Assembly: GCA_007131465.1 (NCBI GenBank)
Contig: SLQN01000572.1
Span: 1 to 7,957 of the forward strand
Length of the DNA: 7,957 nt
DNA from: Paracoccaceae bacterium
GTDB lineage: Bacteria > Pseudomonadota > Alphaproteobacteria > Rhodobacterales > Rhodobacteraceae
Direction of reading: 5' to 3'
Position 1 is the stretch's first letter. Each line of letters starts with the position of its first letter. Both the position numbers and the translations under genes were made by a program. This document shows positions 1 through 7,500 of the stretch, one piece after another. The notes under the pieces were generated by a model. The model ran no database searches. It was not told the DNA's origin and saw only the letters and a program-made list of their open reading frames with translations.

Positions 1-70
1 CATGTTGCCCCGTTCCTCCTCCCTCGGGGCACATGATGGGACTGACAGGCCGTCCTCCTCCCTGGTCTGG
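1..70 (+). ncRNA. CcsR/cuckoo-type sRNA unit A (5' end may lie outside window)
   Basis: Two consecutive hairpins are visible. The first pairs 1-12 with 25-35 (CATGTTGCCCCG against CGGGGCACATG, 11 bp with one bulged T) around a 12-nt loop at 13-24. The second pairs 46-51 with 64-69 (CAGGCC against GGTCTG, one G-U pair) around a 12-nt loop at 52-63. Both loops end in TCCTCCTCCCT. Two adjacent stem-loops exposing CCUCCUCCC are the defining architecture of the R. sphaeroides CcsR1-4 RNAs, which belong to the wider 'cuckoo' family. There they are stress-induced, co-transcribed with a DUF1127 gene and cut from a precursor. No promoter is visible because the unit starts at the window edge, so the 5' end is unknown. 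The strand is set by unit B's terminator. Family assignment is from recalled knowledge; the hairpins are seen directly. Confidence 0.8.
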
Positions 71-169
71 AAGTTCCTGGAATAGCGGCCTACGGGCTGT
101 GACATTGTAAAGGCCCGGTCCTCCTCCCTTGGGTCTTGCAAAATCGGCGGTAGTCCCCTCCTCCTCCCT
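14..169 (+). repeat. Four copies of TCCTCCTCCCT, each inside a hairpin loop
   Basis: Identical 11-mers lie at 14-24, 53-63, 119-129 and 159-169, with start-to-start distances of 39, 66 and 40 bp. The short-long-short spacing groups them as two pairs, matching the two sRNA units. The flanking sequence differs between copies but is self-complementary around each one, so selection appears to act on the loop sequence and on the presence of a stem. CCUCC within the motif equals the anti-Shine-Dalgarno core of 16S rRNA. Confidence 0.9.
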
Positions 170-192
170 GGGACTACCGCCTTTCCTTTTTT
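108..192 (+). ncRNA. CcsR/cuckoo-type sRNA unit B, ending in its own terminator
   Basis: This is the second tandem two-hairpin unit. Hairpin 3 pairs 110-117 with 130-137 (AAGGCCCG against TGGGTCTT, 8 bp with two G-U pairs) around the 12-nt loop 118-129. Hairpin 4 pairs 146-157 with 170-181 (12 perfect base pairs) around the 12-nt loop 158-169, followed by a T-tract. Both loops contain TCCTCCTCCCT, as in unit A, while the stems are unrelated in sequence. The 40-nt spacer before the unit (about 70-109) is AT-richer near 101-111 and could hold an RNase E processing site, which is inference. The expected product is an RNA of about 75-85 nt with two C-rich loops able to pair with G-rich Shine-Dalgarno regions. 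The exact 5' end cannot be fixed from sequence. Confidence 0.82.
146..192 (+). terminator. Rho-independent terminator of the sRNA array
   Basis: A 12-bp perfect inverted repeat (GGCGGTAGTCCC at 146-157, GGGACTACCGCC at 170-181) has a 12-nt loop carrying the CCTCCTCCC motif. It is followed by TTTCCTTTTTT at 182-192. On the opposite strand the same stem is followed by GATTTTGC, so it may also weakly terminate the convergent helicase transcript, whose stop codon is 14 bp beyond the T-tract. There is essentially no other room for a terminator between the two transcription units. Confidence 0.9.
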
Positions 193-205
193 GAAAAGCT
201 GAATG

Positions 206-2587
<2,382 letters not shown>

Positions 2588-2629
2588 CGGGGCAAGCCTA
2601 GCGCGATGCGCGCAGGAGGGGAAGTGAAT

Positions 2630-2644
2630 GTTCTGCAAAAGTTC
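2630..2644. promoter_or_regulatory. LexA (SOS) box GTTC-N7-GTTC upstream of uvrD
   Basis: GTTC at 2630-2633 and GTTC at 2641-2644 are separated by exactly seven bases (TGCAAAA). This is the direct-repeat LexA operator of Alphaproteobacteria, originally defined in R. sphaeroides and unlike the E. coli palindrome. It lies 43-57 bp upstream of the uvrD ATG and overlaps the predicted transcription start, a sensible position for repression. uvrD is an SOS gene in many bacteria. The match is exact at all eight specified positions; function is inferred. Confidence 0.75.
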
Positions 2645-2647
2645 TGA

Positions 2648-2675
2648 ATAATCCACAACAATTTTGCGATGTCAG
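2648..2675 (-). promoter_or_regulatory. Putative sigma-70-type promoter of uvrD
   Basis: On the minus strand, CTGACA (2675-2670, 5 of 6 matches to TTGACA) is followed after 16 bp by GATTAT (2653-2648, 4 of 6 matches to TATAAT). Transcription would start near 2641, inside the LexA box, giving a leader of about 55 nt. The -35 hexamer overlaps the stop codon of the upstream small gene, so uvrD could have its own promoter as well as receive read-through. The call rests only on consensus matching and position. Confidence 0.45.
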
Positions 2676-3136
2676 AATATCTTCCCCCTGTCAGCCCCAA
2701 GGACACTCAGGTCACAGGTGGCACCCATCGCGCCCAGTTGTGGCAGATCGTCGTCACCGGGGCCTTGTCGCGTGCCACGCAGCGCGGCAGTTGCCGCCCA
2801 TCTTAGGATCGCGTCTTGCGAACAGCGTGCGTAGACAACCCCTGCGGCAGCCGTGACATGGCGCATCTCGTATTCGAACCGTCCGATATAGCCGTCACGA
2901 TCGATCATCACCACAGCAGGGTCCTTCCCGGTCAGGAAAGCCGCGAACAACGCCTGATGGACGCTGTCGCGCGCCGACGCCTTGCCATCAAGTGCGATCT
3001 CGATGACATGGCGATCCGTCTCGCAATCCACCCGAACATGGCGCTTCATCTCGTAAGTATCGAAGTAATGGCGGGTTTCCGTTTCGCTGCCGCCAAGAAA
3101 TGCGCACAGAAGGGCCGCAAGTTCCACTTCACGCAT
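2672..3136 (-). CDS. Conserved-looking hypothetical protein, possible degenerate PD-(D/E)xK-like fold
   Basis: The gene encodes 154 aa from the ATG at 3136. A TTG at 3160 would add eight residues but sits in the GTTAAC repeats, so I do not prefer it; no strong Shine-Dalgarno is seen for either. I do not recognise a named family. The core VRVDCETDRHVIEIALDGK (about 34-52) followed by a helix-like ARDSVHQALFAAFLTG and a strand AVVMID near 74-79 has the strand-strand-helix-strand order of the PD-(D/E)xK nuclease fold, with D37, E46, D50 and K52 as possible acidic/lysine positions. The spacing is not canonical, so this is a guess. There is no signal peptide or membrane segment. The C-terminal third (about 120-154) looks poorly ordered (GTRQGPGDDD). 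Codon use looks coding (GC-rich third positions). The gene lies 84 bp upstream of uvrD on the same strand and could share its transcript. Confidence 0.75.
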   Translation of the reverse strand: MREVELAALLCAFLGGSETETRHYFDTYEMKRHVRVDCETDRHVIEIALDGKASARDSVHQALFAAFLTGKDPAVVMIDRDGYIGRFEYEMRHVTAAAGVVYARCSQDAILRWAATAALRGTRQGPGDDDLPQLGAMGATCDLSVLGADRGKIF

Positions 3137-3152
3137 CTTGACCAACACCCGC

Positions 3153-3179
3153 GTTAACAAAGGTTAACAAATGGTTAAC
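3153..3179. promoter_or_regulatory. Triple GTTAAC array, candidate CtrA binding sites
   Basis: GTTAAC occurs at 3153-3158, 3163-3168 and 3174-3179, spaced 10 and 11 bp, so all three lie on one face of the helix. The right pair reads TTAA-N7-TTAAC (3164-3179), the CtrA box of Alphaproteobacteria; the left pair is TTAA-N6-TTAA. The array sits between two divergent genes, 17-43 bp upstream of the small minus-strand gene's ATG and about 80 bp upstream of the dehydrogenase ATG. CtrA is the obvious candidate regulator, but another dimeric factor could bind such half-sites. Confidence 0.5.
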
Positions 3180-4508: not shown

Positions 4509-7500
4509 ATGGCCGAGTTCAAGAAGATCCTCATCGCCAACCGCGGCGAAATTGCGATCCGTGTCATGCGTGCTGCCAATGAACTGGGCAAACGCACAGT
4601 TGCGGTCTATGCCGAGGAAGACAAGCTGGGCCTGCACCGGTTCAAGGCCGATGAAGCCTACCGCATCGGCGAGGGGCTGGGACCCGTCGCGGCCTATCTC
4701 TCGATTGACGAGGTCATTCGCGTGGCCAAGGCGTCGGGTGCGGATGCGATCCATCCGGGCTATGGCCTGTTGTCGGAAAACCCCGATCTGATCGATGCCT
4801 GCGTGGCCAACGGGATCACTTTCATCGGGCCGCGCGCGGACACCATGCGCGCACTGGGCGACAAGGCCAGCGCCCGGCAAGTGGCGATCAAGGCGGGCGT
4901 GCCCGTGATCCCCGCGACCGAAGTTCTGGACGATGACATGGACAAGATCCGCGCGATGGCGCGCGAGGTCGGCTATCCGCTGATGCTCAAGGCCAGTCAT
5001 GGCGGGGGCGGGCGCGGCATGCGCCCGATCCTGTCCGAGGACGAGGTCGAGGCGAAGGTCCGCGAAGGCCGACGCGAGGCTGAAGCCGCCTTCGGCAATG
5101 GCGAGGGCTATCTGGAAAAGATGATCGAGCGCGCCCGCCATGTCGAGGTGCAGTTGCTGGGCGACACGCATGGCAATCTCTATCATCTGTATGAACGCGA
5201 CTGCACGGTCCAGCGGCGCAACCAGAAAGTGGTCGAGCGCGCCCCTGCCCCCTATCTGAGCGATGATCAGCGCGCCGCCATCTGTGAAGAAGCGCTGAAG
5301 ATCGGGCGCGCCGTCGGCTACCAGAACGCCGGAACCGTCGAATTCCTGATGGATATGGATGACGAGAAGTTCTACTTCATCGAAGTGAACCCGCGGGTGC
5401 AGGTGGAACATACGGTCACCGAGGAAGTGACCGGCATCGACATCGTCAAGGCCCAGATCCGCATCGCCGAAGGCGCGACCCTGTCAGAGGCCACCGGCAC
5501 ACCGTCGCAGGGCGATGTCACGCTGTCGGGCCATGCCCTGCAATGCCGCGTGACGACCGAGGACCCGCTGAACAATTTCATCCCCGATTACGGGCGCCTG
5601 ACCGCCTATCGCAGCGCCACGGGCATGGGCATCCGGCTTGATGGCGGCACGGCCTATGCCGGGGGGGTCATCACACGGTATTACGATTCGCTTCTGGTCA
5701 AGGTCACGGCCTGGGCCCCCACCCCGACCGAGGCCATCGCCCGGATGGACCGCGCGCTGCGCGAATTCCGCATTCGCGGGGTCAGCACCAATATCGCCTT
5801 TGTCGAGAACCTGCTCAAACACCCGACCTTCGTGGACATGAGCTATACCACCAAGTTCATCGACACCACCGAAGACCTGTTCAGTTTCCGCAAGCGCCGC
5901 GACCGGGCCACGAAGATCCTGACCTATGTCGCCGACATTACCGTGAACGGCCACCCCGAAACCGCAGGCCGCGCCCTGCCACCTGCCGGGATCCGCACAC
6001 CAGTCGCGCCCAAGGTCAGCGGCGAACCGCCGCGTGGCGCGAAACAGATCCTCGATGAACAGGGGCCACAGGCCGTGGCCGACTGGATGGCGGCAGAAAA
6101 ACGCCTGCTTCTGACCGACACGACCATGCGCGACGCCCATCAGTCTTTGCTGGCAACCCGCATGCGTTCGATCGACATGATCCGCGTGGCCCCCGCCTAT
6201 GCCCATATGCTGCCGCAGCTTTTCTCGGTCGAATGCTGGGGCGGCGCCACGTTCGATGTGGCCTACCGGTTCTTGCAGGAATGCCCCTGGCAGCGCCTGC
6301 GCGACCTGCGCGCGCGCATGCCCAACCTGATGACGCAGATGCTGCTGCGGGCCTCGAACGGGGTCGGTTATACCAATTACCCGGACAATGTGGTGCAGTT
6401 CTTCGTCAAACAGGCCGCCGAAACCGGGGTGGACGTGTTTCGCGTCTTCGACAGCCTGAACTGGGTCGAGAACATGCGCGTCGCGATGGACGCGGTGATT
6501 GAACAGAACAAGGTTTGCGAGGGCACGATCTGCTACACGGGCGATATCCTGAACCCCGAGCGGGCGAAATATGACCTGAAATACTATGTCAGGATGGGCA
6601 AGGATCTGCGCGATGCAGGCGCGCATGTGCTGGGGCTGAAGGACATGGCGGGGCTTCTGAAACCCGCCTCGGCCCGGTTGCTGATCCGCGCGCTGAAGGA
6701 AGAGGTCGGGCTGCCGATCCATTTCCACACGCATGACACGGGCGGGATTGCAGGCGCGACGATCCTGGCTGCCGCCGAAGCCGGGGTGGATGCCGCAGAC
6801 GCGGCGATGGATGCGCTGTCGGGCAATACCTCGCAGCCGACCCTCGGCTCGATCGTCGAGGCGCTGCGCTTTACCGAGCGCGATACGGGTCTGGACATGG
6901 CGGCCATCCGCAAGATTTCGGATTACTGGGAAGAAGTGCGCGCGCATTATGCCGCGTTTGAATCCGCGCAGCAGGCGCCGTCGTCCGAGGTCTATCTGCA
7001 CGAAATGCCGGGCGGGCAGTTCACCAACCTCAAGGCACAGGCGCGATCCATGGGGCTGGAAGACCGCTGGCCGGAAATCGCGCGCACCTATGCCGATGTG
7101 AACATGATGTTCGGCGATATCGTGAAGGTCACGCCTTCGTCCAAGGTGGTGGGCGACATGGCGCTGATGATGGTCAGCCAGGGGCTGACGCGCGCCGATG
7201 TCGAGAACCCCGACCGCGATGTCAGCTTCCCCGATTCCGTCATCGACATGCTGCGCGGCAATCTGGGCCAGCCCCCCGGTGGATGGCCTGCGGCAATCTT
7301 GCGCAAGGTCCTCAAGGACGACACGCCGCTGAGCGACCGGCCCGGAAAGCACCTGCCACCGGTCGATCTGGAAGCCGAGCGCGAAAAGCTGATCGCCGAT
7401 CTGGATGGCTACAATATCGATGACGAGGATCTGAACGGCTATCTGATGTATCCCAAGGTCTATCTGGATTACATGGGCCGCCATCGCAGCTATGGACCCG

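Follow-up and report, generated by a model that had tools for sequence, protein, structure and literature searches.

The array and its neighbour at the left end of the window

The window, by which we mean the whole stretch of DNA analysed here, is an entire contig, C401, with a length of 7957 bases; the assembly to which it belongs comprises 581 contigs and 3.03 Mb and is 75% complete. Its left end (positions 1-192) holds four hairpins, each with CCUCCUCCC in the loop, and a pcrA gene converges on them from the right. The extended motif TCCTCCTCCCT occurs four times, at 14-24, 53-63, 119-129 and 159-169, always on the + strand, against a chance expectation of 0.01, and none of 200 shuffled sequences carried four copies. 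CCTCCTCCC is likewise found four times in the window, every time inside the left-end array, where 0.10 occurrences would be expected. The features are as follows.

1..35, + strand: window hairpin 1, which opens unit 2 of a putative three-unit array; loop TCCTCCTCCCT (fold; partial CcsR1 match)
38..77, + strand: window hairpin 2, which completes unit 2 and contains an internal loop (fold; alignment with 17 relatives)
78..105, + strand: linker between units 2 and 3, containing GGAATAG; predicted RNase E processing region (GAATA-like stretch in the alignment; putative cleavage)
106..140, + strand: window hairpin 3, which opens unit 3 (CcsR1 match, covariation)
146..181, + strand: window hairpin 4, which completes unit 3 and has a 12-bp stem; likely intrinsic terminator stem (fold; covariation)
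182..192, + strand: T-rich terminator tail TTTCCTTTTTT (sequence)
206..2656, - strand: pcrA/uvrD helicase gene, convergent with the array (PF00580 297 bits, PF13361 215 bits)

A 162-residue frame on the - strand at 2672-3160 has no Pfam match at 1e-5.

The 195-nt stretch folds at -87.4 kcal/mol, compared with a shuffle mean of -63.6 kcal/mol (z -5.7). Folded singly, hairpin 1 (span 1-35; -16.4 kcal/mol, z -5.1) and hairpin 4 (span 144-185; -24.7 kcal/mol, z -6.7) are clearly more stable than shuffles. Hairpin 2 (span 37-77; -18.0 kcal/mol, z -1.8) was equalled by 9 of 200 shuffles, and hairpin 3 (span 104-140; z -1.5), the weakest single fold of the four, by 16 of 200; with a further z of -0.7, three of the six hairpins of the putative array are not clearly above shuffles. 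Tandem hairpins exposing CCUCCUCCC in the loop, a feature of the ccaF1-CcsR (CIN1) type, are present, and under a strict definition, with the motif wholly within a closed hairpin loop, three of the four window hairpins qualify, while hairpin 3 leaves 7 of its 9 motif bases unpaired. The last hairpin has the form of an intrinsic terminator, a G+C-rich stem (12 bp, 146-181) followed by a U run (TTTCCTTTTTT). A simple terminator scan of positions 1-400 returned no match; it permits loops of 3-8, and the loop here is 12. The tail that follows unit 3 in the alignment of relatives is T-rich and often interrupted. A sequence-only reading of this stretch had described four same-loop hairpins closed by a terminator, and the repeated motif, the fold of the stretch and the terminator-like last stem confirm that description.

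Seen from the pcrA side, the terminator stem (- strand, 141-193) is a hairpin whose loop, GGGAGGAGG, is complementary to the CcsR loops, so a read-through RNA of pcrA could pair with them. The linker at 78-105 carries a GAATA-like stretch that is repeated in many rows of the unit-2 alignment, and the cited part of PMC6238624 describes a preference of RNase E for AU-rich single strands.

Comparison with Rfam models and definition of the unit

The Rfam CcsR1 model (RF02791) covers 83 positions and two hairpins, each with its loop, and has a gathering cut-off of 65.3 bits. Window positions 99-185 (unit 3) match it with 43.2 bits (E 3.8e-8), and positions 1-79 (unit 2, truncated at the edge) with 21.6 bits (E 0.092). 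Across the whole genome, three CcsR1 matches are prominent (E <=4.7e-7): unit 3, a unit on contig C424 (36.0 bits, E 4.7e-7) and a site on contig C15 (44.2 bits); the next begin at E 0.049. The score of unit 2 alone is noise-like (E 0.085-0.092, among about a dozen weak genome matches), and its assignment is based on its loops, its position and its relatives. Some CcsR1 match at E up to 10 was found in 12 of 14 control genomes, none of them above the cut-off. Covariance-model support expected for a CcsR array was therefore obtained in the form of a significant match to unit 3, but one below the curated score. Because that score is not reached, we file the locus as of the ccaF1-CcsR (CIN1) type and not as a formal RF02791 member.

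The Rfam ar14 model (RF02344; gathering cut-off 58.8 bits) matches window positions 100-192 with 41.7 bits (E 3.2e-5) and the C15 site with 48.5 bits, so RF02344 membership is not reached either, and no match in this genome attains the gathering score of CcsR1 or ar14. In bits, ar14 exceeds CcsR1 at the C15 site and at locus L108 of Roseinatronobacter thiooxidans ALG1 (52.6 vs 46.7). The C15 site (C15:3743-3825, L061) is a solitary CcsR1/ar14-like pair; visual inspection of the frames listed around it showed none resembling DUF1127.

Since the Rfam CcsR1 unit consists of two hairpins, the four window hairpins make up two units. The sequence-only reading had set the four hairpins beside the four units of the known array; the hairpins are real, but four separate CcsR units are ruled out, as the Rfam unit has two hairpins and the four units of Rhodobacter sp. 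SW2 hold eight loops.

A DUF1127 gene and a further unit on contig C424

The start of the window exactly at the base of a hairpin, which had been pointed out, is simply the start of contig C401. This contig has no upstream flank, and the gene upstream of its units is therefore inferred from elsewhere in the genome. This genome carries the 9-base motif at 21 places, and motif pairs 20-45 bases apart occur four times: two in the window, one on C15 and one on C424. The C424 pair lies at 7119 and 7156, near the end of the 7218-base contig, where the gene order is Mrp, HIT, DUF1127 and then one two-hairpin unit. The DUF1127 frame starts with an ATG at 6888, encodes 70 residues and matches PF06568 with 48.4 bits (cut-off 23.3); it lies directly upstream of this unit (unit 1) on the same strand.

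The ends of C424 and C401 share no exact overlap, and their linkage therefore rests on gene order and spacing. If the two contigs abut, the spacing between hairpins 2 and 3 of the array is 77, and it is 73-82 in relatives with both loops exact. We infer from these sequence features that C424 and C401 abut. Because the usual order in the genus is Mrp, (HIT), DUF1127, three units and convergent pcrA, the locus likely consists of a ccaF1-like DUF1127 gene and three units broken up by assembly. The earlier suspicion of a larger copy number holds to the extent of one more unit on the likely neighbour C424, but the array of the genus has three units (six hairpins), and it is the four-unit array of SW2 that has eight. 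Likewise, the upstream hairpins and the DUF1127 gene that the sequence-only reading had predicted are found, but on C424, the putative neighbour of the window contig.

The array is interrupted by contig ends in three genomes, here at the base of hairpin 3 of six and in L207 and L208 at AGTTGCAAAGG, the base of hairpin 5. Such breaks within the array suggest that assemblies tend to break at the hairpins.

Conservation of the locus in the genus

We searched for pcrA in 40 genomes including this one, 23 of which are other genomes of the same genus. The array lies beside a convergent pcrA in 18 of these 23; it is complete in 17 and cut by a contig edge in G003. A DUF1127-like frame precedes the six hairpins in all 17 complete loci (two such proteins, one from a relative and that of C424, were run against Pfam, and eight were aligned). 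All six loops are exact in 15 of the 17, and one loop is substituted in G008 and in G020. No array was seen in the examined pcrA flank of G018, G014 and G007, yet three exact pairs occur elsewhere in each of these genomes. G015 has a truncated pcrA and G019 gave no full pcrA match; neither genome has a motif pair. Arrays of more than three units at this locus are ruled out, as the examined flanks of the 17 complete loci contain no additional exact loops.

By pattern search, 35 of 37 genus genomes (this one included) have a motif pair, the exceptions being G015 and G019. Three exact tandem pairs are present in 28 of the 36 other genus genomes (hand count), which bears out the predicted conservation of the hairpins in related genomes; in G008, G020, G192 and G198 one loop of the six hairpins is altered, and G003 and G197 have a single pair at a contig edge. 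Additional solitary pairs elsewhere were found in 4 of the 37 genomes, including this one (C15:3761-3809). Together with the CcsR1 match and the DUF1127 gene on C424, conservation across the genus supports the identification of the hairpins as a CcsR/cuckoo array. A literature search on small RNAs and CcsR in Rhodobacteraceae and Roseinatronobacter returned nothing on this genus.

Covariation, loop exposure and identity of the units

The unit-3 alignment covers 19 genomes; 99.4% of its cells pair and 8 of 18 pairs show changes on both sides, values that relatedness of the genomes can inflate. None of 500 shuffles reached the paired fraction, the both-side count or the covariation score, and 54 of 500 reached the pair-types measure; this comparison of pair counts with shuffles covers unit 3. 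Within the same 19 genomes, hairpin 4 has both-side changes in 5 of 12 pairs and 100% of cells paired. RNAalifold recovered partial structures for units 1 and 2, with both-side changes in 4 and 7 of 12 pairs, because MAFFT shifted the stems.

The 18 genus loci examined contain 102 exact sites, and at 101 of them a closed hairpin loop encloses the whole motif; the corresponding figures are 1 of 13 for motif sites elsewhere in this genome and 63 of 510 for shuffled flanks. We also compared 54 units, taken from 18 genomes, after masking the loop and trimming each unit to its first 70 letters. For every one of the 54, the best match is the unit at the same position in another genome. Mean scores are 68.7 for same-position units, 28.0 for units within a genome and 27.9 for different units of different genomes. 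The three units therefore look old and separately kept, since they match by position and are no more alike within a genome than the background.

Because each unit keeps its own stems by position throughout the genus while the loop is common to all, each might be a separate regulator, its stem or linker adding target or processing specificity to the common anti-Shine-Dalgarno loop; we consider this reading tentative and rather unlikely.

A promoter-like element and candidate targets

Upstream of DUF1127, in 17 relatives and on C424, there is TTGTGC followed after 15 bases by a -10-like hexamer. TTGTGC is present in 18 of 18 sequences; the hexamer is CTATCT in 14 of 18, with TATCT in 17 of 18, and this genome has CTACAT, a weaker -10. 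RpoH promoters of R. sphaeroides are described, in the cited part of PMC3441632, as having TTG in the -35 region and a T at -9. The element agrees with that description on both points, at a level at which the sigma factor is not distinguishable from sequence, and we call it RpoH-like. The RpoH-type promoter anticipated by the sequence-only reading may have a counterpart in this conserved element. Two more conserved blocks lie upstream of the promoter-like element at about 6740-6815 of L060, near TTACCTAGCGTAAACATGC and GCGCATAGCCGCATTGCAGCAT; both are possible regulator sites, and the one near TTACCTAGCGTAAACATGC is poorly kept in this genome.

Candidate targets were sought among the 13 motif sites outside the three loci, as the perfect complement GGGAGGAGG before the ATG of a long frame. 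The complement lies 6 and 8 nt before the ATG at two sites and 14 nt before it at one, and these are leads only, listed without a control. The products of the frames at 6 and 8 nt are a carboxymuconolactone-decarboxylase-family protein and a histidine kinase.

DUF1127 loci beyond the genus

A DUF1127 profile found 248 encoding stretches, and the best 80 of the 248 were taken as named loci; records of Roseinatronobacter, Natronohydrobacter and Roseibaca are among the nearest. The named-locus and genus sets are not independent, because some records are the same genomes. Within 2 kb downstream, 66 of these best 80 have at least two exact loops, 4 have one and 10 have none. Within 900 bases the number of exact loops ranges from none to 13, with six the commonest (29 of the best 80 loci), and 369 of the 383 loops in this range lie in closed hairpin loops. 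Mrp is present in the examined flank of 51 of the best 80 (hand count).

Rhodobacter sp. SW2 (L132) has four CcsR1 units with eight exact loops, scoring 104.1, 65.6, 65.3 and 64.3 bits, that is, two above the cut-off of 65.3, one at it and one just below. Like the locus studied here, SW2 has Mrp and DUF1127 upstream of the array and pcrA downstream, but its pcrA match (59% identity) starts about 1.3 kb past the array, whereas pcrA is directly adjacent in the window. Of the ten loci with no exact loop, five were inspected. In four of them, L147, L162, L164 and L173, DUF1127 and pcrA are separated by 40-96 bases with no array between them. Two of these four genomes have no exact pair; each of the other two, among them Amylibacter cionae m18 (L173), has one elsewhere, and the array has likely been lost in all four loci. 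The fifth, in Rhodobacteraceae bacterium HIMB11 (L135, downstream of 3207), has hairpins behind DUF1127 with loops shortened to CTCCTCCC or less, which exact-motif searches therefore miss.

Of 149 genomes of the family (a draw from a larger group, this one included), 106 have at least one pattern match and the maximum is 15. Four genomes (G045, G089, G146 and G057) reach 13 to 15 matches, all on a single strand. Such counts are not unit counts, because neighbouring units in crowded arrays also match the pattern.

Discussion

We conclude, with a probability of about 0.88, that the window hairpins are the 3' two of three units of a ccaF1-CcsR (CIN1) locus whose DUF1127 gene and unit 1 lie on C424, and whose RNA would be transcribed under stress, cut by RNase E and mask ribosome-binding sites. 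The cited parts of the R. sphaeroides literature (PMC8625941, PMC10253847, PMC8307010, PMC7866481) describe CcsR1-4 as cut from the ccaF1 3' UTR by RNase E and destabilised by PNPase, with an RpoHI/RpoHII promoter, Hfq interaction, flhR mRNA as a target and a maturation affected by the DUF1127 protein CcaF1. The locus shares with ccaF1-CcsR1-4 a 70-aa DUF1127 gene followed by tandem units of two hairpins with CCUCCUCCC loops, a terminator-like end and an RpoH-like element before DUF1127. It differs in having three units instead of four, in stems that have diverged so far from Rfam CcsR1 that scores fall under the cut-off, and in the HIT gene that separates Mrp from DUF1127 in most loci of the genus. 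Its units are also strongly unlike each other. At the sequence level the comparison is with Rfam CcsR1 and Rhodobacter sp. SW2.

By analogy, the locus most likely works as in R. sphaeroides, with three units. Stress, through RpoH control, would give one RNA carrying DUF1127 and the three units; RNase E and PNPase, influenced by the DUF1127 protein, would process it to small RNAs; these may be bound by Hfq; and their anti-Shine-Dalgarno loops would pair with G-rich ribosome-binding sites and so mask target mRNAs.

The hairpins might instead serve only as terminators or 3'-UTR stabilisers for the DUF1127 mRNA and for convergent pcrA, with no trans-acting small RNAs. The terminator-like final hairpin with its T-rich tail fits this, as do the minus strand, which reads as a hairpin followed by GATTTTG for pcrA, and the four named loci in which a short spacer without an array is all that separates DUF1127 from pcrA. 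However, terminators need no fixed loop, and here the 9-nt loop stays constant while the unit-3 stems change with compensation; six hairpins are present where one would suffice, and the related RNAs of R. sphaeroides are, in the cited sources, processed and regulatory. We therefore regard this explanation as improbable. A mobile or repetitive palindromic (REP-like) element that came to lie beside pcrA by chance is disfavoured. Solitary extra pairs in a few genus genomes and the up to 15 pattern matches of some family genomes are what such an element might leave, but the match of every unit to its own position, within-genome likeness at the cross-genome level and the conserved place behind DUF1127 make it extremely improbable.

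An RNA of the alphaproteobacterial ar14/NfeR1 type would have its own promoter and would not be processed from a 3' UTR. The cited part of PMC10746234 describes the loop of NfeR1, which is the same as that found here, as an anti-Shine-Dalgarno motif, and like ar14/NfeR1 (RF02344, Rhizobiales) the array has CCUCCUCCC loops in several hairpins. The ar14 match to window positions 100-192 and the higher ar14 scores at L108 and C15 also speak for this type. However, the ar14 cut-off is not passed, and for window unit 3 CcsR1 is better in both score and E-value. In contrast to NfeR1, with its own RpoD-type promoter (PMC10746234), a DUF1127 gene precedes the array, directly so in relatives. No sigma-70-like promoter was found in positions 1-400, which is weak evidence since only 0.1 would be expected. 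On balance this origin appears very improbable, and the ccaF1-CcsR reading is preferred. SmelA075 and SmelA099 of Sinorhizobium, with three and four hairpins, the CCUCCUCCC loop and variable stems (as given in the cited part of PMC3927594), belong to a different bacterial order and resemble the array in hairpins and loop.

The array is likely a well-conserved, ordinary addition to a known type of small-RNA array. With it, a CcsR-type array is placed in the salt- and alkali-loving Roseinatronobacter/Roseibaca group, and the unit is corrected to two hairpins. The four DUF1127 loci that have no array offer natural tests of the function of the protein when it lacks adjacent small RNAs.
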